DNA of 64,000 bases from Acidobacteriota bacterium (GTDB taxonomy: Bacteria; Acidobacteriota; Thermoanaerobaculia; Gp7-AA8; JAHWKK01). Below the pieces are notes generated by a model. It was given only the letters and a program-made list of their open reading frames with translations, had not been told where the DNA came from and searched no databases. Of the stretch, positions 32,658 to 42,707 are shown in pieces. The DNA lies in assembly GCA_019347945.1 (NCBI GenBank), contig JAHWKK010000022.1, forward strand, positions 1-64,000. Reading direction: 5' to 3'. Each line of letters begins with the position of its first letter. Position 1 is the first letter of the stretch. The translations under genes were made by a program, and so were the position numbers.

Positions 32658-33278
32658 ATGAACGATCGACCGCGAAATGACGCCAAGATGGCTGCGATCC
32701 CAGGGGGCGTCGCAGGGATCCCGGTCGTTGTCTTCGCATTCGCCCTTTCAGGTCTCTTCAGCAGCCCGGCTTCAGCGCAGACGAGACCGACGAACGAGCA
32801 CCCGCTCGTCCAGCGGCAGGTTCTCGAGAGCTCCCCCTCTCGGGATGACTCCCGAAGACGGCCGACCGCCCCGAAGGCCCCTCCCTCGGAGGCACCCGCG
32901 AAGCAGTCCTGGTACGTGGTCGAAAAAGCGAGCGCAGATTTCGGGCTGGTCAGCCCGGGGCAGACCGCAGTGATCGACGGCGCGCTCCTGATTCGCGTAT
33001 TCAGCGAAGATGCCTGGATACTCAGGCTTGCGCCGAGGGTCGCCAGTGTCAGTTCCGGATCGGTCACCGAGCGAATTTCCTCGTCGAGACTTGCTCTGAA
33101 GACGGGAGCGGCTGGCTGGCAGGTACTCCGGGACGGCGTACCGAGTGTGGTCGCGCGGGGCAAGGCGACCTCTGGCGCGGGTGAGCTGGTCATCCTCGAT
33201 CTGAAGCTCGCTCTGGAGAACCGGGATCCGGTCGGGTACTTCGGCGCGGAGCTCGAGCTCCGCCTCGATCCGAGGTAG
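32658..33278 (+). CDS. Secreted beta-rich protein, possible tip component of a pilus-like system
   Basis: A 206-residue exported protein. After a basic N-terminal region a hydrophobic stretch (V-V-V-F-A-F-A-L-S-G-L-F) ends in P-A-S-A-Q, a good signal peptidase site. The mature part begins with a charged low-complexity linker and continues as a beta-rich domain containing A-D-F-G-L-V-S-P-G-Q-T. It ends with G-Y-F-G-A-E-L-E-L-R-L-D-P-R, a terminal-strand pattern like that of fimbrial subunits. The ATG at 32658 follows AAGGAG. It runs towards the two subunit genes, 261 bases ahead, but whether it belongs to that locus is an inference. Confidence 0.65.
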   Translation: MNDRPRNDAKMAAIPGGVAGIPVVVFAFALSGLFSSPASAQTRPTNEHPLVQRQVLESSPSRDDSRRRPTAPKAPPSEAPAKQSWYVVEKASADFGLVSPGQTAVIDGALLIRVFSEDAWILRLAPRVASVSSGSVTERISSSRLALKTGAAGWQVLRDGVPSVVARGKATSGAGELVILDLKLALENRDPVGYFGAELELRLDPR

Positions 33279-33539
33279 GACGAGCGGTGGCATCCGGGGG
33301 CGCCTTACCTTCGATAGGTGAAATTGAGTACTGAAGATAACTTCCGCAACCAGCGAAGTTGGCCTATCTTTGAGAGCGTGACGAAGAAAACCCAGCTCGT
33401 TATGAATTATTTGAAATAACCGGAACTGAAGACTGTTAACATGGGTGCTTTCCAAAAAACGTAGCAAATCGGTGAGACTCCCAGAGTCGACAGGCTTGTG
33501 GATCCAAGGAAAATTGACAAAGTTTCAGGAGGAATTCGG

Positions 33540-34142
33540 ATGAGAAAGATACTGGCAGTAGCAGCAATTTCAGGGGCGGCCATCTTCATGGCAGGCAACG
33601 CCGAGGCCCAGGCAACCGACAGCAACTGGGTGCAGGTCACGGCGACCGTTCAGGGCGTCTTCGACTTTAAGATCGATGGCAACGACTATCCGGCGGGATC
33701 TCCTGCGCTTCATGATTTCGGGTCTGTGACCGTCACGGGTGTGCAGACGGGCGGCACGGCCGCGACCTCGATCGTAACCGCGGCAGATGGAAGCACCGCG
33801 CATTACCGAGCGGAGCCCGCATTCGGATGGACGGTCGTGAGTGCGCCGAGGCGTACGGTCGACATTTCCTATCAGAATGCGACGATCGACGCTGCCAACA
33901 CGATGACCATCGATCAGCTGGCGATCGAGATGTCGGTGACCCAGCAGGCGGACGGTGGGGCGGGAACCTCGACAGCGTGGAACCAGCTTTCGGGCGCCAA
34001 GACGCTTCTGGTCGATGATGCTCTCGCTGGTAACGGCACCAACACCGCGGCCGGGAACATCAACCTCGAGCTGAGAGTCGACGAGAACGATGCTGAGGGA
34101 GCCAACACGTTCACGTTCGAGCTGTACGCGGAAGGCATCTGA
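33540..34142 (+). CDS. Putative major fimbrial-like subunit (paralogue 1)
   Basis: A 200-residue secreted protein: signal peptide M-R-K-I-L-A-V-A-A-I-S-G to A-E-A-Q, then an all-beta domain without cysteines. Motifs shared with the next gene are D-S-N-W-V at the mature N-terminus, F-D-F-K-I-D-G, S-A-P-R-R-T-V-D-I-S, Q-L-A-I-E-M-S-V-T, L-L-V-D-D and a terminal F-E-L-Y-A-E-G-I. The layout (N-terminal strand, then a C-terminal alternating strand before a chaperone and an usher-like gene) is what donor-strand-assembled pilins show. No known pilin family name is certain. GGAGG stands 7 bases before the ATG. A strong terminator follows 30 bases after the stop, so this gene should be the most expressed of the set. 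Confidence 0.72.
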   Translation: MRKILAVAAISGAAIFMAGNAEAQATDSNWVQVTATVQGVFDFKIDGNDYPAGSPALHDFGSVTVTGVQTGGTAATSIVTAADGSTAHYRAEPAFGWTVVSAPRRTVDISYQNATIDAANTMTIDQLAIEMSVTQQADGGAGTSTAWNQLSGAKTLLVDDALAGNGTNTAAGNINLELRVDENDAEGANTFTFELYAEGI

Positions 34143-34171
34143 CCGAGCGGTCAGGAGAGGCAAACTTGTCA

Positions 34172-34204
34172 GGGCGAGGTCGCTTAGCGGCCTCGCCCTT
34201 TTTT
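34172..34204 (+). terminator. Intrinsic terminator between the two subunit genes
   Basis: GGGCGAGG (34172-34179) pairs with CCTCGCCC (34191-34198). The stem continues through CGC/GCG to a three-base loop (11 Watson-Crick pairs plus one T-G pair) and is followed by six T. It lies after the first subunit gene and 12 bases before the second subunit ATG, so downstream genes would be read only by partial readthrough or from another promoter. Confidence 0.93.
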
Positions 34205-34216
34205 AGGGTCCGCCAC

Positions 34217-34810
34217 ATGTTCAAATTCAAGATAGTCGGAAGAGCTCTGGCCACGGTCGCGACGATCGCGGTGCTGGCCTCTCCGGAAGCTGCAGCTCAG
34301 ACCGACAGCAACTGGGTCAGCGCCACCGCGACGGTATCGAGCGTGTTCGATTTCCGAATCGACGGCGCCGACTGGTCACGGCTCGACCCGGCGGTCTACG
34401 ACTTCGGATCAGTCTCCCACACCGGAATGAACGGCGGGGTCATCATAGCGGGACGGGCGTACTACACAGCGAACGGCGCCTTCACGTGGTCCGTCGAGAG
34501 TGCACCACGGCGGACGGTGGACGTCTCATTTCAGAATGCGACCAAGCTCGTCGAGCCTGCAGCCGGGGCGATGGACCTCGATCAGCTGGCGATTCGGCTG
34601 ACGATCACGGCCCAGGCATCGGGCGGTGTGGGGACGTCGACCGGACTGACCGCGCTTTCGACCGGGAAGGAAGTTCTGGTCGACGATGTACTTTGTGGAG
34701 TGGGGAGCTCGACCGGGAGCGGTAACATTGACCTGGAACTGTATGTCGACGGAAACGACAGGCAGGGTGTCAACACATGGGAAATCGAGCTCGTGGCGGA
34801 AGGCATATGA
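34217..34810 (+). CDS. Putative minor fimbrial-like subunit (paralogue 2)
   Basis: A 197-residue secreted protein, paralogous to the preceding subunit along its whole length. The signal peptide ends in A-A-A-Q, the mature N-terminus reads T-D-S-N-W-V, and the sequence continues with F-D-F-R-I-D-G, S-A-P-R-R-T-V-D-V-S, L-D-Q-L-A-I-R-L, L-V-D-D and a terminal I-E-L-V-A-E-G-I. A single cysteine (V-L-C-G-V) differs from paralogue 1. The ATG at 34217 follows the terminator closely, and longer frames starting within the hairpin are unlikely. The stop overlaps the chaperone ATG (ATGA), so this subunit is coupled to the chaperone and usher, as expected for a minor or initiating subunit. Confidence 0.72.
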   Translation: MFKFKIVGRALATVATIAVLASPEAAAQTDSNWVSATATVSSVFDFRIDGADWSRLDPAVYDFGSVSHTGMNGGVIIAGRAYYTANGAFTWSVESAPRRTVDVSFQNATKLVEPAAGAMDLDQLAIRLTITAQASGGVGTSTGLTALSTGKEVLVDDVLCGVGSSTGSGNIDLELYVDGNDRQGVNTWEIELVAEGI

Positions 34811-35634
34811 AGATCGAAATGACTAAAAGAGGGTTTGTTTTGTCGCTGTTCCTCGTCATGGTGATCGGCTTGGTTGCGGATGCCGGCGCCCAGCTTCACA
34901 TTCAGATCACGCCGCAGATTTTCGAACGGGTGATCTCGCCGGGCGGGACGCTCAACGACCGGCTGACCTTCCACAACGCGGGATCGGTGCCGCTCGAGGT
35001 TTCTCTCGAGCTCGCGGACTTCGATGCAGATGAACAGGGTAATTCCGTGAAGTTTCCGCCCGCCACGCAGGAATATTCGCTCGCGCCGTATCTTCGAGTG
35101 ACGCCGATCCGGGCTCGGATCGGGCCGGGGCAATCGCTCGATTACCGGCTTGTGGCAAAGCTTTCCCCGGATTTCGATCACCGGCGCGTGATGCTCTACT
35201 TCCTTTCGAAGCCGGTGTTCGAGGATGCGGGAGAAGGATCCAGGACGATCGTGGTGCCGAAAATCGGGATACCGGTTTACGTGGAGTCCCGGACGGCTTC
35301 GGCTGCCGTTCTCGGGGTGGAAAATGTAGAATGGAAACGGCTCGACGATTCGCGTCTGGGGCTGACGCTAACGACGACGAATGCCGGGCAGAGAATCATT
35401 CGACCGCCGGTGTCGCTGGAGATCAGCAGTGCAGACGGCTCTTTCTATGAAGTCTTCAATCTGAATGGTGGGGCGGATCCGGTACTGCCGGGTCGTCTTC
35501 GCCACTGGGCCTTCGCGGTTGGCCCTGTGCCGGGAGGGGAGCTATCCGCGCGACTCAACTTCGCCACGTCGCTTCGCGACTCATTCGTCCGGGAATACGA
35601 GATTCCGGCAGCGGTCGTGACAGAGGCGCAGTGA
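34807..35634 (+). CDS. PapD-like periplasmic pilus chaperone (probable)
   Basis: A 275-residue exported protein with a signal peptide (F-V-L-S-L-F-L-V-M-V-I-G ending in A-G-A-Q). Two Ig-like domains follow. The first has the chaperone pattern I-S-P-G-G-T-L, then R-L-T-F-H-N-A-G-S-V-P-L-E-V, L-A-P-Y-L-R-V-T-P and I-G-P-G-Q-S-L-D-Y-R, matching the donor-strand region of COG3121 chaperones. The second follows V-E-W-K-R-L-D and is long. It is somewhat larger than E. coli PapD (about 220), and similarity is moderate, so a related Ig-like secreted protein remains possible. It overlaps both neighbours by four bases, between the minor subunit and the usher-like gene. Confidence 0.68.
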   Translation: MKIEMTKRGFVLSLFLVMVIGLVADAGAQLHIQITPQIFERVISPGGTLNDRLTFHNAGSVPLEVSLELADFDADEQGNSVKFPPATQEYSLAPYLRVTPIRARIGPGQSLDYRLVAKLSPDFDHRRVMLYFLSKPVFEDAGEGSRTIVVPKIGIPVYVESRTASAAVLGVENVEWKRLDDSRLGLTLTTTNAGQRIIRPPVSLEISSADGSFYEVFNLNGGADPVLPGRLRHWAFAVGPVPGGELSARLNFATSLRDSFVREYEIPAAVVTEAQ

Positions 35635-37670
35635 TTCGGGTGGCACGACCCGCCCTGGGTTGTGCCCTGCTGATCTCTCTCGGACTTCCCGCGTCCGCAC
35701 AGTTTTCCGAGCCTGTCGATGGCGCGATCTATTTCAGCCTGGGAACCAATGCCATCGACGCGCCTCTTTTCGGAGTCGATGCGACGTATGCCTACAACAT
35801 CTATCTTCGACAGCGATTCGCGAGCGGTGAGCAGCTGTCGCTGTTCGGCTCGGGAGGGTTCCCGTCGAGCCGTCAATTTCTGACGCTCGAAGCGTCGGAT
35901 CTCCGATTCCGGGAGGGGATCGCCACGGTCCGGGGAGGCGACATCGGTCTCAAGCCGCTCCGACCGGCCCGTTTCTCAGGGATCGCGGGTGAAAGTACGT
36001 TGCCGCTACTGGGTCTCGGGGCGGAATGGGTGAAAAGCGATCGCCAGCTGCAGCTATTCACCGGCGTCAACCGGTTCGCCATCAGACTCCCCGACTCCTC
36101 GGAGATCGGGCGATCGTATGTCGCGGATCTCCGCTGGCTGGAGCGATTCGCGAGGACTCACCTCGGTGCCGGAGTGACGTTGATCGCTGACCCTCACTAT
36201 CTCGGGGACCGGACCGAGCGAAGTGTGGATGCGGTCGTCAGCGGACGATACATCCGCGAGCTCCGGCCATATGTGCACGCGTTCTCCGAAGCCTCGGTGT
36301 CGCTCTCCGGCTCGGGGGCGGCCCGGGCGGGTCTCGCCGGGGACTTCCGGAACGGCGACATTTCCACCTCGGTCTATGCATTCGGAGACGACATGCCGTT
36401 TCTCTATCCTCTGTTCCGTCCGGGAGAGATCGGCGCCGAAGCGGGAGGTTCCTATCGTTTCAGCGAGTTCGGTTCCATCGGTGGAAACGTGAACTACCTT
36501 CAGGATGATCCGCTGGCCCGAGGCTCTGCGTTCATCGCTTCTGCCCAGCTCGGTTACAGCTTCGGCTACGATCGTCCTTTCCTGACCTTGAGCGCGTCGC
36601 ACAACGAGCTCGTCTACGACAATTTCGAAGAAGAGTCGGAGGCGAGATTCGGCGATCGGTTCGCACTCGGGATCTCGCGGTCGACTCTCACGCGTCGCTA
36701 CAACCTTCGACTGGAGCACGCCGAGGACACGCTGGTCACCCGGACTCAACTGTATGGCGGGTTCGGGAGGGAGGTCGGGCGGGAAGGATTCGTCGACTCC
36801 TACGTCGTCCTCCAGGCGGCCGACGAAGAGCTCGGAGCGTTGGCGGAAGTCACCGTCCAGAATCGAATTCGTCGCAACATCTGGTACGTCGCGGGAGTCG
36901 GTGGAGCCTGGCAGCGTACCGATGTCGAGCGCGCGGAAGGGTTCGTCACGGCAGGTCTGTCGTGGAGAAGTCCCCGTAACGGATGGATCGGTCGAGTCGA
37001 TCTGCTCGCCCCGTTCGGGGTCGGTATGCCCCGGGCGAACCGCGTGAGTCGGAGCATTCGGGCACAGGTTGGCCTTCGCTACGACTGGGACGAAGTCTCC
37101 GAGCTTCGGAGGGTTTTCAGCGGGGTGTTCTTCAGAAACGACTTCGGACGAATCGAGGGGCGCGTGATCTCGGGCGGTGAGCCGGTGGCCGATGCGGTCA
37201 TTCTGGTCGGAGGGATCCCGATGGCGTCGAGCGGGAGTGACGGACGATTCTCCGCCTCGGGAGTTCCCGTAGGACAGGTGAGAGTCGAGGTCGATCCGTT
37301 CTCGGTGGATCCGAGCCTGGTTCAGAGAGCGGGTGCCGTCATCGTCAATGTTCTGCCGCGTGAGACCACCACAATCGAGATCGAGCTCGCGCGATCCGTC
37401 GCATTTTTCGGATCACTCGTCAGGTGCGACGGGGAGGAGCTCATCGGAATCGGCGGCGCGACAATCGGGCTCGTCGGCGATGTCGGCATCTACGAGCTCT
37501 CGACGACGGTCGAAGGCGGCTTCGCGGCATCGGACGTGACGCCAGGGGTCTACTCGATCATCATCGATCCCGCGACGATCGGCGACATTCCGCCGGATCA
37601 GATACCCGCGATCGAGATCGATCTCACCGAAGACGTTCTCGGTTACGTCATTCGACTCGGTTGTCCGTGA
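35631..37670 (+). CDS. Usher-like outer-membrane beta-barrel protein
   Basis: A 679-residue outer-membrane protein with a GTG start overlapping the chaperone stop as GTGA. A short signal peptide (A-L-G-C-A-L-L-I-S-L-G-L-P-A-S-A-Q) precedes a large region of alternating hydrophobic strands typical of a barrel (to about 505). It is followed by two small beta domains (G-R-I-E-G-R-V-I-S-G-G-E-P-V-A-D-A-V and a second one beginning F-F-G-S-L-V-R-C) of the carboxypeptidase-regulatory type. Canonical FimD/PapC ushers have about 800 residues, an N-terminal chaperone-binding domain and a plug; these are not evident here. Its position after subunits and chaperone strongly suggests a secretion pore. A noncanonical usher is the best reading. 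Confidence 0.66.
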   Translation: MIRVARPALGCALLISLGLPASAQFSEPVDGAIYFSLGTNAIDAPLFGVDATYAYNIYLRQRFASGEQLSLFGSGGFPSSRQFLTLEASDLRFREGIATVRGGDIGLKPLRPARFSGIAGESTLPLLGLGAEWVKSDRQLQLFTGVNRFAIRLPDSSEIGRSYVADLRWLERFARTHLGAGVTLIADPHYLGDRTERSVDAVVSGRYIRELRPYVHAFSEASVSLSGSGAARAGLAGDFRNGDISTSVYAFGDDMPFLYPLFRPGEIGAEAGGSYRFSEFGSIGGNVNYLQDDPLARGSAFIASAQLGYSFGYDRPFLTLSASHNELVYDNFEEESEARFGDRFALGISRSTLTRRYNLRLEHAEDTLVTRTQLYGGFGREVGREGFVDSYVVLQAADEELGALAEVTVQNRIRRNIWYVAGVGGAWQRTDVERAEGFVTAGLSWRSPRNGWIGRVDLLAPFGVGMPRANRVSRSIRAQVGLRYDWDEVSELRRVFSGVFFRNDFGRIEGRVISGGEPVADAVILVGGIPMASSGSDGRFSASGVPVGQVRVEVDPFSVDPSLVQRAGAVIVNVLPRETTTIEIELARSVAFFGSLVRCDGEELIGIGGATIGLVGDVGIYELSTTVEGGFAASDVTPGVYSIIIDPATIGDIPPDQIPAIEIDLTEDVLGYVIRLGCP

Positions 37671-37673
37671 CAC

Positions 37674-39197
37674 TCACGCTGCTGGAAGCGACGCCACGAG
37701 CTCGGCTCCACCGTCCGGATGATTCTGCAGCGTGACGCGCCCGCCGTACCCTTCCACGATCGCCTTGACGATCGCGAGTCCGAGGCCGGCGTGGTAGCCG
37801 TTCGACGAATCCCGCCAGCTGAAAAAGCGATCGAATACCCTCGAAAGGTTTCCCTTGGGGATTCCGGGCCCCGAGTCCCGCACGGCGGTGCGGATCATCT
37901 GGCCATCCCGCTTGATCGAAACGGTGACCGAGCCACCGGCCGGGGTGAAGCTGAGGGCGTTCTCGAGAACATTCTCGAACACCTGAACGAGGCGTTCTTC
38001 CGATGCCCGAACTTCCAGCGGTCGCGATTCGGCGGCTTCGATCACGATCGGGACGTTTGCGCCTCTCACCCTGAACCCGTCGGCGACGCTCCGAACGACG
38101 GCCGCCACGTCGGTGGGGTGAAGAGGCTCGTTGTCGAGCCGCGCATCGATCCGGGTGATCTCGCGGAGAGAGCCGAGCAGGTTTTCCATCCGATTGATCT
38201 CGTCATTGGCCATCGAAAGAAAGCGGTCTCGTTCGTGCGGGTCGCTCGTCGACGCCATCATCTCCACAGCGTTTCGAATCGATGCGAGCGGGTTTCTGAA
38301 CTCGTGGGAGACGTCGGCGGCGAAGTGCTCACTGAAGTCCTGATGGCTTTCGAGACGAGATGTGAGACGTTCGAGCGCGCGCGACAGGTCCCCGATCTCA
38401 TCGCGCTTTTCCGATGCGGTGAACCCGCCCCGCAACCTTCCCCGTCGATCGAGGATCGCCTCGGATTCCCGCTGAAGCCGCCCGAGCGGTCTGACGATCG
38501 TCGCACCGATCCACAGGCTGAGAACGATCGCTGCGAGCAGGGAGCCGAGAAAGATCCGGAAGATTCCGAGTCGAACGGCATAGAGATCGTGGAGGATCGC
38601 GTGAGTCGTCCGCGAGACGAGCACCGCTCCTCTTCCTCCCGCGAGGTGGACCGGCCGCGCTTCGTAAAGGATCACGGAGGGAGACGATTCGGCCCGGGCG
38701 ATACGTTTGGCGCTTCCGCTCCGCCCGGCGAGCGCGTTCTCGATCTCGATGCCGTCGAGAACAGCCGCCGCCTCATACTCATCGCCTTCGAGCGAGACCG
38801 GCTCGGGCCCGCGGAACCACTGCATCGGCTTCCGAAGCAGCAGCGTACCGATTCGGTAGAGGAGATCACTTCTTATCTCCTCGTAGTGGTACGGGTAGCT
38901 CTCTTCTCCGCTCCGTGCGGAATCGGCGATCACGGTTCCATCTCCGGATACGATCCGGATGCGTTCATCATTTCGGAGCTCGAGGTTCTCGATCGTGGAA
39001 GCGGGAAGTCCGTTCCGATCGATGATCTCGGCGATCAGCCGGGCCCGTTCGTGCATCGACTGCCGCTGCGCCTCGACCAGATGCTCTTCGTAAACATCGA
39101 CGTAGAGAACACCCGCAAGAGGAAGAAAGAGAAGAAGGAGATTGAACGCGAGTATCCTGAGGCCGATTCGCGAGAAGAATCTCCGCCACCTCGTCAC
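37674..39197 (-). CDS. Dedicated-sortase-system sensor histidine kinase
   Basis: A 507-residue sensor kinase. It has a first helix at about 10-30, an extracytoplasmic sensor of about 200 residues containing N-D-E-R-I-R-I-V-S-G-D-G-T-V-I-A-D-S, and a second helix at about 235-255, then HAMP (R-P-L-G-R-L). A HisKA domain with the phospho-accepting histidine in S-H-E-F-R-N-P-L and an HATPase with D-S-G-P-G-I-P and G-L-G-L-A-I-V follow. The layout and company (class GN sortase, VIT/vWA target, response regulator) match the kinase of the proteobacterial dedicated sortase system. The start is the GTG at 39197, giving V-T-R-W-R-R-F-F. The gene follows the sortase, separated by only 5 bases. Confidence 0.9.
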   Translation of the reverse strand: MTRWRRFFSRIGLRILAFNLLLLFLPLAGVLYVDVYEEHLVEAQRQSMHERARLIAEIIDRNGLPASTIENLELRNDERIRIVSGDGTVIADSARSGEESYPYHYEEIRSDLLYRIGTLLLRKPMQWFRGPEPVSLEGDEYEAAAVLDGIEIENALAGRSGSAKRIARAESSPSVILYEARPVHLAGGRGAVLVSRTTHAILHDLYAVRLGIFRIFLGSLLAAIVLSLWIGATIVRPLGRLQRESEAILDRRGRLRGGFTASEKRDEIGDLSRALERLTSRLESHQDFSEHFAADVSHEFRNPLASIRNAVEMMASTSDPHERDRFLSMANDEINRMENLLGSLREITRIDARLDNEPLHPTDVAAVVRSVADGFRVRGANVPIVIEAAESRPLEVRASEERLVQVFENVLENALSFTPAGGSVTVSIKRDGQMIRTAVRDSGPGIPKGNLSRVFDRFFSWRDSSNGYHAGLGLAIVKAIVEGYGGRVTLQNHPDGGAELVASLPAA

Positions 39198-39202
39198 GCC
39201 CC

Positions 39203-39850
39203 TTATCTTCCCCCATTCCAGGCAGGGTCGCGAGCCGTGCGGTCTAGCGCAAGCGTTGCGGGCTTCTCCTCCACTGCCGTCACGACCCATCGTTGTGAGC
39301 CTCCCGGGCTCACCGCGTCGAAGGGATAGCAGGTCACCAGGGAGATGCGGCGGTCTCCCTGATCGCGAAGGCGGTGACCATCATGCTCATCGATGATCCG
39401 CGTCGCGGTCACTCTGTAAGGGACGACTTCGCCGTCGACGCGTTCCACCGCGATCCGCTGTCCGACCCTCAGATTCCGGAGTGCGGCGAAGTGGGTGTCG
39501 CGGTGCGCGGCGACGATCGAGTGGCCGTGGTGACCGGGAAGGGCGCTTCCCTCGAGATGGCCCGGCCCGAAAGCGAGTGCGTGACCGCTCGTTCCCGACA
39601 GAACGATCAACTCGATCCGTCCCTCGTCGAGCATCAGCTTCGCAACCGGCCAGGTGTCGGCCCAGGTCCACGGTTTCGGCGCTTGCTCGCCGGCGCGCGC
39701 CCGATGCCAGGCATGATCGAGGAGAACCTGCGCCAGCGCCGCCTTCGCGGGGATCCACCAGCCGACGGCCGTCGCGATGAGACCAGTCGTCAGAAGACAG
39801 AGCGTCAACACGCGGGACACTCGTGAGCGGATGACGGTGTGGCTCATCAT
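39203..39850 (-). CDS. Class GN sortase
   Basis: A 215-residue sortase with one N-terminal signal-anchor helix (about 12-32). The catalytic triad is visible: H116 in A-A-H-R-D-T-H, C174 in L-V-T-C-Y and R187 in S-Q-R-W. The size and the single-target neighbourhood fit the class GN (proteobacterial dedicated) sortases, which process one partner at an LPxTG-like site in the inner membrane or periplasm. The partner is encoded directly upstream and overlaps it (ATGA). ATG codons at both 39850 and 39847 are possible starts. Confidence 0.94.
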   Translation of the reverse strand: MMSHTVIRSRVSRVLTLCLLTTGLIATAVGWWIPAKAALAQVLLDHAWHRARAGEQAPKPWTWADTWPVAKLMLDEGRIELIVLSGTSGHALAFGPGHLEGSALPGHHGHSIVAAHRDTHFAALRNLRVGQRIAVERVDGEVVPYRVTATRIIDEHDGHRLRDQGDRRISLVTCYPFDAVSPGGSQRWVVTAVEEKPATLALDRTARDPAWNGGR

Positions 39851-41862
39851 TCAGCTCCCTGCCGGCGGAATCGTGCGGTCCAGACAGCAGCCGCGGAGAT
39901 CAGGAGAATCAGACCCAGAAGCCGAGCAAGCGGAGCGAGCGAACCGGTTCGAGGCAGCAACATCTTCATCCCCTCCGGCACGCGCAGCGGTATCGGAACG
40001 GCGATACAGCTCGTGGCATCGATACCCGCGGGCGTCCGGTCCACTGCCACGAGGCTCGTATGCGCCGAGACGAGATGATGTGCGATCGCAACCTCGATGA
40101 TTTCCTTCCGCGCTTCTTCGCGAGGCAGTCCGTCGAGCTCGCGATCGGAGATTTCATCGATTTTCCGTCTGGCCCAGAGGCGTGAAAGGCCACCATCCGA
40201 GACGACGTGACGATCCGGTTCTACCTGGTGCCAGAGACGCTTTCCCGCGACTCCTTTCGCTGCAATCGCAGCGTTCGGATCGAAGTGACGAATGATCGTG
40301 ACCAATGGCTCCCCGAGGTATAGATCGGGTGTGGCGCGGGGATAAATCTCCGCGGTCCGGTCCGAGACTTCGATTCCGACCCCCGTGAGAGCCGGCGAGT
40401 CGATTTTGTCGAGGAGCTCGCTCATCCGCTGTTCCACCTGATCCGCCTGAGGAATCCACGTGAAGGTTCCTCTTCCATGGCGGGCAATCGAGGTCATGAA
40501 ATGGCCGTTCGGTGCTGAGCCGATTCCGACGGTGAACAGCCGGCTTCGACCGAGCTGTGATCGGACCAGCGTGGCGAGCTCATTCTCGTTGCTGATGAGC
40601 CCGTCGGTGATGAAGATGATCTGACGAAGCTCGCCGGACACCGTCTGCACGTCGCTGAGCGCGCTCGCCAGCGCCGGAACCATATTCGTTCCCCCCTCGG
40701 CTCGTAGCGAATCGACCCACCCCTTCGCGTCGGCAATCGCTTGCGCGGTTGCACGCCTCGATTCGGAGGCCCAGAGACGGTGGTTCGTATTGAATTCGAT
40801 GATGTTGAAGCGGTCGGAGCCGCGCAGCCGTTCGAGAGCTCGGGCGAGCGCTGCTTTCGCCTGAACGATCGACTGTCCCTCCATCGATCCCGACGTGTCG
40901 AGGATGAATATCTGCTCGCGAGGCTGGACGGAGCCCGAGGCGAGATGGGATGGGGGAAACATCATCACCATCGAATACGACGGAGACCCCGATCCCGGAT
41001 CGCCCGGGCGCTCGTTGAAGACGACCGCTTTCGGCTCGCGGCCCGCCTGAACGCGCCATTCGAGGTGGAAATCACGATCTGCAGGCGTCTCCGCGAGCGT
41101 GATTCGAGCGGTCGACCCTCCCGTTCTCACGACCTCGACCGGATGCGAGATGCTCGATACGGTGTCGAGATCCGCGCCGGCATCCAGCTCGATGTCGAAG
41201 GTCACGAGAAGACCACGGAAAGACGCAGAGTGCGCCGTCGCGGGAAGCGGCGATGCGCCGGAGGCCTCGCCGGGCTCGTATCTCGGAGCGACGACCAGCG
41301 GGACTCTCATCCTGAACGTACCACTGTCGTAATGGGCGATGTCGTCATATCCGATCGTCACCTCCATGACCTCGCCGGGTCCGAGGGAGGAGACCGAAAG
41401 GGTGAAGACGTCGGGCCGTTGTTGTTCGAGCAGCGACGACTTCCTCCCCTCGGATCTCGCCTGCTCGAAGATCTCCCGCGCCTGCTGCCGTTCATGAATC
41501 TCTCCCTCGATCGTTCTGTGGCCGATCCGCATCACCAGTCGGTCGACGGCAGAGCTCTCCGGCAGCGGGAAGACGTAGACTCCGTTGACGCAGTTCTCCG
41601 TGGAATTACGAAACTTCTGAGTGATCGATGTACGGATCAGCATCCCGGTCACTCGAACCTCGGCGTGGCTCGAGAGGATGGGCGCCTCGACGTACCGACC
41701 CGGGACGATGGTTTCGAGCAGCAGCCCGCCGTGCTCGAGCTCGCCCAGTGTGACCGTCTCTTCCAGAGTGCGTTCGTCGCAGTTCTCCCCGGGACAGTCC
41801 TCTCCGAGCGCGGGGGAGCTCAGAGCGAGTACGGCGGTGGCGATCGTGATGAGTTTTTTCAT
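39847..41862 (-). CDS. VIT/vWA sortase target protein with LPRTG signal
   Basis: A 671-residue secreted protein and the dedicated substrate of the adjacent sortase. A signal peptide (M-K-K-L-I-T-I-A-T-A-V-L-A-L) precedes the VIT domain (about 55-210), with R-T-I-E-G-E-I-H-E-R-Q-Q-A-R-E-I-F-E. It is followed by a von Willebrand A domain with the intact D-T-S-G-S MIDAS motif, then a C-terminal L-P-R-T-G at 636-640, a membrane helix and the basic tail R-F-R-R. This is the full sorting signal. Such proteins are thought to be cleaved after the threonine, but their role is poorly known. The cysteine-rich N-terminus of the mature part (C-P-G-E-N-C) is notable. Confidence 0.94.
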   Translation of the reverse strand: MKKLITIATAVLALSSPALGEDCPGENCDERTLEETVTLGELEHGGLLLETIVPGRYVEAPILSSHAEVRVTGMLIRTSITQKFRNSTENCVNGVYVFPLPESSAVDRLVMRIGHRTIEGEIHERQQAREIFEQARSEGRKSSLLEQQRPDVFTLSVSSLGPGEVMEVTIGYDDIAHYDSGTFRMRVPLVVAPRYEPGEASGASPLPATAHSASFRGLLVTFDIELDAGADLDTVSSISHPVEVVRTGGSTARITLAETPADRDFHLEWRVQAGREPKAVVFNERPGDPGSGSPSYSMVMMFPPSHLASGSVQPREQIFILDTSGSMEGQSIVQAKAALARALERLRGSDRFNIIEFNTNHRLWASESRRATAQAIADAKGWVDSLRAEGGTNMVPALASALSDVQTVSGELRQIIFITDGLISNENELATLVRSQLGRSRLFTVGIGSAPNGHFMTSIARHGRGTFTWIPQADQVEQRMSELLDKIDSPALTGVGIEVSDRTAEIYPRATPDLYLGEPLVTIIRHFDPNAAIAAKGVAGKRLWHQVEPDRHVVSDGGLSRLWARRKIDEISDRELDGLPREEARKEIIEVAIAHHLVSAHTSLVAVDRTPAGIDATSCIAVPIPLRVPEGMKMLLPRTGSLAPLARLLGLILLISAAAVWTARFRRQGAE

Positions 41863-41999
41863 GGTTGCTCTCCTCTCCTTTCAATAGAAGGTCGAAACGC
41901 GCAGCGGGAATGAAGGGCCGGTGGCGAAGTCGCGAAAAGTTCGTGGCGAAAATGAGGCGAGCGCGAATCACTCGCTGGTTCGCCGATACAATTGTGGCG

Positions 42000-42707
42000 A
42001 TGGAGAGCGGCAATGTGATTGCGGTCGTCGACGACGAGGAGAACATTCGCGAGACGATCGGATGGGCTCTGGAGAGAGAGGGCTTCCGGACTCTGAGGTT
42101 TCGAGACGGACAGGAAGCGTGGGAAGCGCTGGAGCGCGAGCTTCCCGATCTGGCAATTCTCGACATCCTGATGCCTCGCATGGATGGGCTCGATCTCTGC
42201 CGCCGGTTGCGCGGCGTCTCTCCGGAACTTCCGATCATCTTCCTCACATCGAAGGACGACGAGATCGATCGCGTCGTCGGTCTCGAGCTGGGAGCGGACG
42301 ACTATCTCGGCAAACCGTTCTCGATGCGCGAGCTGATCGCGCGGATCAGGGTGCTCTTTCGCCGCGTCGCCCTCTCGAAGGCGCCCGATGACTCCGAGGA
42401 GGAACGGCTCGAGATCGGCGATCTGATCCTCGATCTCCGGAGGTACGAAGTGACATGGAAGGATGAGCCGGTCCAACTGACGGTGACCGAGTTCATGCTT
42501 CTTCACGCGCTCGCACGGCACCCGGGGTTCGTCAAGACGCGGGAACAACTCACTCGCGAGGCGTATCGGTTCGACAACTACGTGAGTGAACGAACCATCG
42601 ACAGCCACATTAAACGTCTCAGGAGAAAAATGGAGCAGACTGATCCGAAGTTCGACCGGATCGTGACCGTTTACGGTGTCGGTTACAAGTACCGCGAGGG
42701 CGAATGA
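42000..42707 (+). CDS. OmpR/PhoB-type response regulator of the sortase system
   Basis: A 235-residue response regulator: an N-terminal receiver with D11/D12, the phosphorylated D55 in A-I-L-D-I-L-M-P, T83 and K105, then a winged-helix DNA-binding domain with L-T-x-x-E-F-x-L-L and T-R-E-Q-L-T-R-E. It faces away from the sortase target gene, so the 137-base gap between the two (41863-41999) should contain divergent promoters and its binding sites. The ATG at 42000 starts M-E-S-G-N-V. The cognate kinase is at 37.7-39.2 kb, on the other side of the target and sortase genes. Confidence 0.93.
   Translation: MESGNVIAVVDDEENIRETIGWALEREGFRTLRFRDGQEAWEALERELPDLAILDILMPRMDGLDLCRRLRGVSPELPIIFLTSKDDEIDRVVGLELGADDYLGKPFSMRELIARIRVLFRRVALSKAPDDSEEERLEIGDLILDLRRYEVTWKDEPVQLTVTEFMLLHALARHPGFVKTREQLTREAYRFDNYVSERTIDSHIKRLRRKMEQTDPKFDRIVTVYGVGYKYREGE

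Follow-up and report, generated by a model that had tools for sequence, protein, structure and literature searches.

Among the genes of an Acidobacteriota genome of 3.7 Mb in 49 contigs (assembly GCA_019347945.1), a stretch of 64,000 nucleotides of contig C22 (JAHWKK010000022.1, positions 1 to 64,000; hereafter the window) contains a locus at 32658-37670 that resembles a chaperone-usher pilus operon. Five forward-strand genes make up this locus, which comprises the following features:

32658..33278, + strand: minor secreted protein ("FG" protein), with homologues in the same cluster of relatives and no Pfam family
33540..34142, + strand: subunit 1, a putative major pilin of 200 residues with a signal peptide; an AGGAGG ribosome site lies just 5' of the ATG
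34171..34199, + strand: intrinsic-terminator-like hairpin of 13 pairs with a T6 tail, in the gap that separates the two subunit genes, from terminator and fold scans
34217..34810, + strand: subunit 2, 197 residues, a paralogue of subunit 1
34807..35634, + strand: periplasmic two-domain chaperone of archaic/alternative type, with an invariant Pro100, Arg127 and a G1-strand Lys152
35631..37670, + strand: usher-like outer-membrane protein, in which a signal peptide is followed by a predicted barrel of 24 strands over mature residues 1-460 and by two C-terminal beta-sandwiches (CTD1/CTD2-like, CarboxypepD_reg)

Gene order and recurrence of the locus

An initial annotation, made from the letters alone, had described two paralogous subunits, a chaperone and a barrel protein that overlap or adjoin. 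All of these reading frames are present: the subunits are 57% identical, and 4-bp overlaps join the last three genes (ATGA between subunit 2 and chaperone, GTGA between chaperone and barrel). For subunit 1, an alternative start at 33498 was considered spurious, and the ATG at 33540, which follows AGGAGG, was preferred. The hairpin behind this gene is by far the strongest terminator-like site of the region (z -3.0), where the number of such sites overall is not above chance; at a related locus, L017, a strong hairpin is likewise located 3' of the subunit gene (z -4.9). In well-known pilus operons, hairpins placed in this manner yield more of the major subunit than of the assembly proteins, and by analogy the hairpin at 34171..34199 would favour an excess of subunit 1 over the products of the downstream genes. 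NtrC regulators near some relatives suggested a sigma-54 promoter upstream of the operon; no good match was found there, and matches remained below the number expected by chance.

The window-type gene set was found again in four other Acidobacteriota genomes, G055, G012, G006 and the more diverged G267. Chaperone orthologues are present in the first three at 36-41% identity (another one occurs in G267), the barrel protein occupies the same places there at 28-34% identity, and subunit homologues are located within the same clusters, as are homologues of the 32658 protein (L015, L016, L017 and L075). Recurrence of the set at such distances argues that the locus is not a chance arrangement. The exact window type is nevertheless rare, since the scan of the genome collection returned only G055, G012 and G006. 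A plasmid search with the window barrel as query gave no match. With a looser chaperone profile, 29 of 396 Acidobacteriota genomes were found to encode a related chaperone; in the 30 loci that were examined, the chaperone is adjoined by a barrel with C-terminal CarboxypepD-type domains, usually alongside one to three secreted proteins of ~170-230 residues.

Chaperone and subunits

When the five window genes were compared with Pfam and NCBIfam, no named family was found except a weak CarboxypepD_reg match in the barrel protein; the chaperone has no PapD_N match in Pfam, where distant members of its family (the relatives L018 and L003) do pass the PapD_N cut-off. Profile comparison with chaperone families, suggested as a check in the initial annotation, was clearly positive: the wide chaperone family (32 sequences) matches a profile of FimC, EcpB and archaic chaperones at 99.7% in hhalign (E 5e-26), and the four window-type chaperones alone still do so at 94.8% (E 5e-8). 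A sequence search of the PDB with the chaperone profile gave nothing above noise. Structural work has identified a Pro in strand D1 (Pro59 of CsuC) that is invariant across the chaperone superfamily, and an Arg (Arg89 of CsuC/EcpB) that anchors the C-terminal carboxylate of the subunit and occurs only in archaic and alternative chaperones (PMC4654587). The Pro corresponds to P100 of the window chaperone and is retained in 29 of 32 family members and all five window-type sequences; the equivalent of Arg89 is R127, present in all five window-type sequences and 17 of 32 family members overall. The G1 motif of the window-type chaperones, [KR]xG[IV]P, has the archaic form, and a conserved Arg232 aligns with the archaic domain-2 Arg (compare Tyr196/Arg174 of CsuC) in a register that is uncertain without a structure. 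In the chaperone tree, the five window-type sequences form one group (support 100/100), and the deep branches are poorly supported. By its diagnostic residues and profile matches, the window chaperone is a genuine non-classical member of the chaperone superfamily of chaperone-usher systems, below Pfam detection.

The subunits were said to lie outside the known pilin families, and indeed have no convincing match in Pfam or NCBIfam; subunit 1 contains no cysteine, as had been noted, and subunit 2 contains one. A shared A-E-G-I end holds for the two window paralogues only: their orthologues end in AAAP, ASSV or ASGA. In subunit 1, an N-terminal segment of alternating hydrophobic residues, WVQVTATVQGVFDFKI, precedes a DFGSV core, and all window-type subunits have an alternating hydrophobic mature N-terminus, an FGxV-like core and an end just past the last strand. 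In a profile comparison, this N-terminal donor-strand/FG segment matches that of spore-coat-U pilins at 67% (E 5e-5); the window-type subunit family matches the subunits of locus L077 (94%, E 9e-8). The best plausible fold match of a subunit model, the archaeal cannula protein CanA (E 0.024, probability 0.92), was not used as evidence, the model having a predicted local distance difference test score (pLDDT) of 56. The 32658 protein consists of a signal peptide, a Pro/Ala/Ser/Arg-rich linker of ~50 residues and a beta domain with FGxVxPG, and is a putative minor, tip or terminator subunit.

The barrel protein and its missing domains

In ushers, an N-domain precedes a 24-strand barrel, which carries a plug between its strands 6 and 7 and is followed by a pair of C-terminal domains (PMC4356140, PMC11459180). 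The usher family PF00577 has no match in the window barrel or elsewhere in its own genome. An AlphaFold2 model based on a four-sequence alignment contains 24 barrel strands, one helix and two sandwiches, at a mean pLDDT of 63 (parts <50) and a predicted template modelling score (pTM) of 0.43; the C-terminal sandwiches are modelled at pLDDT ~80. Two carboxypeptidase-regulatory-like domains had been proposed for this end, where CarboxypepD_reg was found at residues 508-561 (E 1.3e-6, under the Pfam cut-off) and the model adds a second sandwich. With its 24 predicted strands and two sandwiches, the protein as modelled fits the usher layout and resembles FimD and PapC; it differs from these in having neither N-domain nor plug and no detectable sequence similarity in the barrel. 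A Foldseek search of the PDB with the model placed ushers (FimD, PapC) in all of the best 11 chains (E 1.8e-12 to 2.5e-8), and the first unrelated outer-membrane barrel appeared only at 1.5e-3; the model being imperfect, this preference is a signal at the level of topology. Plug-bearing chaperone-linked relatives match archaic ushers over their full length (E 4e-20), and a control profile of TonB receptors (five rows, of which four are sound and the FecA row is faulty) did not match the barrel family profiles. The PDB sequence search with the barrel profile gave the CarboxypepD-like NOMO2 as best match and otherwise noise.

The absence of N-domain and plug, claimed in the initial annotation, is borne out by hidden Markov models (HMMs) for the plug and the usher-type N-domain, which were run on the 30 chaperone-linked barrels. 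Nine barrels have a plug, seven of them together with an usher-type N-domain; in the two others (L003 and L091) the N-terminal region is different or unrecognised. The remaining 21, including the window barrel, have neither domain by HMM, and an usher N-domain without a plug was found in none of the 30. The plug HMM scored L092 and L020 (E 1.5e-9 and 2.9e-16), neither of which had been a seed for plug or N-domain. The structure model likewise shows neither domain: a 2-residue turn joins strands 6 and 7, and the first strand begins at residue 5 of the mature protein. If the pore is nevertheless closed, a segment modelled at low confidence (mature residues 58-102) would be a candidate for a different gate. 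As ~480 residues hold the window barrel, there is no room for a plug of ~85 residues; this length argument covers the window type, while in longer members the HMM alone could miss a diverged plug. The 32658 protein was considered as a stand-in for the missing N-domain, and profile comparison with the usher-type N-domain, the plug and the chaperone gave nothing. A literature search, with subscription papers outside its scope, found no paper on ushers without plug and N-domain.

Other N-terminal regions are present in the plug-less chaperone-linked barrels L086, L087, L083 and L090, among them a copper-amine-oxidase-N domain (PF07833) in L086, weak in L087, and a secretin-type pil_N domain (PF13629) in L090; SPOR domains form the C-terminal end of L087 and L090.

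A probable divergent chaperone-usher system and its relatives

Archaic (sigma) pili (Csu/CupE, spore-coat-U) share with the window locus the invariant Pro, Arg89-type anchor and [KR]xG[IV]P G1 motif of the chaperone, the order subunit-chaperone-usher and a donor-strand-like N-terminus followed by an FG motif; in relatives, archaic loci adjoin window-type loci or share a small upstream gene with them. They differ from it in that the window usher lacks N-domain and plug, is missed by PF00577 and has C-terminal domains of CarboxypepD_reg type, and in that the window subunits have no conserved disulfide and are missed by the Pfam pilin models. With alternative (alpha) pili (ECP, CFA/I), the window chaperone has the Pro and Arg89-type residues in common with EcpB, whereas no EcpD-like tip gene, no match to the Pfam alpha-usher domain and no N-domain or plug were seen in the window locus. 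A small secreted protein family is common to window-type loci (L016 3760-4206, L017 9195-9584, L075) and true archaic chaperone-usher loci (L020, L021, L023), and none was seen in the window; a few kb downstream at L016 there is also a true archaic locus, whose usher is recognised by Pfam. At L091 (708-5912), a spore-coat-U-like subunit and an archaic-type chaperone adjoin an usher-like protein with plug and CarboxypepD domains, which may form a bridge from archaic ushers to window-type barrels.

The genome of the window harbours a second, chaperone-usher-like system on contig C3 (L003 3149-9461), in which a pair of DUF4402 proteins is accompanied by a PapD_N chaperone and a plug-bearing usher-like barrel protein of 1312 residues with CarboxypepD_reg and terminal SPOR domains. 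Such DUF4402-chaperone-"carboxypeptidase regulatory-like" loci, which also occur on plasmids, resemble the window locus in gene order, PapD-like chaperone and a barrel with C-terminal CarboxypepD_reg; they differ in their DUF4402 subunits and, at L003, in a barrel that retains the usher plug. Relatives of the L003 barrel were found on plasmids of Polaromonas, Sphingopyxis, Novosphingobium and Pseudoalteromonas; on two plasmids that were checked, the barrel gene has DUF4402 genes and a gene of chaperone size as neighbours (the latter named "fimbria/pilus periplasmic chaperone" on the Polaromonas plasmid) and is annotated "carboxypeptidase regulatory-like", so that plug-bearing ushers of the superfamily also go unrecognised. 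No paper on DUF4402 with or without ushers was found within the same literature scope.

The locus is probably a divergent chaperone-usher system with an usher that has neither the docking (N-) domain nor the plug, in line with the new branch envisaged in the initial annotation. This reading is favoured by the non-classical chaperone residues, by ushers being the nearest solved barrel folds and by the intermediate loci that link it to bona fide ushers. Several results weigh against it. The profile comparison with usher families suggested in the initial annotation succeeded in part: the window type matches ushers at E 6e-6 over the last strands and C-terminal domains, and the barrel alone has no sequence match (E 0.18). 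The barrel model is weak (besides its low pLDDT and pTM, superposition gave a TM score of 0.3 and a root-mean-square deviation of 21 Å), and its Foldseek score is partly due to the generic C-terminal sandwiches. The subunit model is too poor to see or deny a missing strand, and a fold search with it gave no significant match. Four of the five window-type chaperones have lost the classical Arg8; archaic chaperones make no use of this position (PMC4654587). An usher identity of the window barrel is thus supported, not proved, and by formal definition it is not a member of the usher family, matching neither PF00577 nor the plug and N-domain models.

The lack of sequence similarity in the barrel, the two absent domains and the frequency of CarboxypepD_reg in unrelated proteins, as in NOMO2, would also fit an unrelated large CarboxypepD_reg outer-membrane barrel that was co-opted for the export or anchoring of beta proteins delivered by the chaperone; this is improbable given the 24 predicted strands, a Foldseek preference for ushers over other barrels of ~nine orders of magnitude, and a genomic slot and chaperone family shared with plug-bearing usher relatives. 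Archaic chaperone-usher relatives include coat proteins (spore coat protein U), and the locus has neither a recognisable adhesin nor a subunit model with a significant fold match; the products may therefore form a coat-like layer or single displayed subunits without polymerisation into a pilus. We regard this as unlikely, since in every window-type subunit the FG core is preceded by an alternating hydrophobic N-terminal segment and the hairpins 3' of subunit genes, in the window as at L017, fit a high-copy subunit. It is very unlikely, finally, that the locus is decayed or ancillary and that its usher depends in trans on an N-domain supplied by a second usher: the plug-bearing protein on C3 and a Pfam usher in G012 could serve as donors, but PF00577 ushers are absent from G000 and G006 and none is listed for G055, both domains are missing in 21 of 30 loci, which span many families, and the overlapping reading frames stay intact at 30-40% identity.

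The locus likely works like a chaperone-usher system, in the following manner: Subunits would reach the periplasm by Sec, where the chaperone would hold each of them, its conserved Arg anchoring the C-terminal carboxylate and its G1 strand being lent to the subunit. The two C-terminal domains of the 24-strand usher would then serve as docking site for the complexes, and the N-terminal strand of the incoming subunit would replace the chaperone strand in the previous one, pushing the fibre outward. Subunit 1, with the terminator behind it, would be the major subunit and the 32658 protein a minor one; donor-strand exchange, docking and fibre formation are what we infer from the parts.

Beside the locus, at 37674-42707, lies a known separate island with a class GN sortase (TIGR03784, 203 bits) and a marine-type sortase target protein (TIGR03788, 623 bits), both over cut-off, together with a histidine kinase and a response regulator, which approach the models of the dedicated system without reaching their cut-offs; no link to the chaperone locus was found.

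In model systems, the N-domain first catches the chaperone-subunit complex, and the plug shuts the pore until the tip arrives. The evidence leans slightly towards a further, phylum-wide class of chaperone-usher systems in which barrel and C-terminal domains alone make up the usher, recruitment and gating proceed without N-domain and plug, and some lineages carry unrelated N-domains (copper-amine-oxidase-N, secretin-type pil_N) instead. Natural ushers without both domains, which are apparently absent together, would offer a ready test of which usher parts are essential. Chaperone-usher systems are also under-counted, as such loci, the plug-bearing DUF4402 type included, are annotated "carboxypeptidase regulatory-like" or hypothetical and are missed by PF00577.

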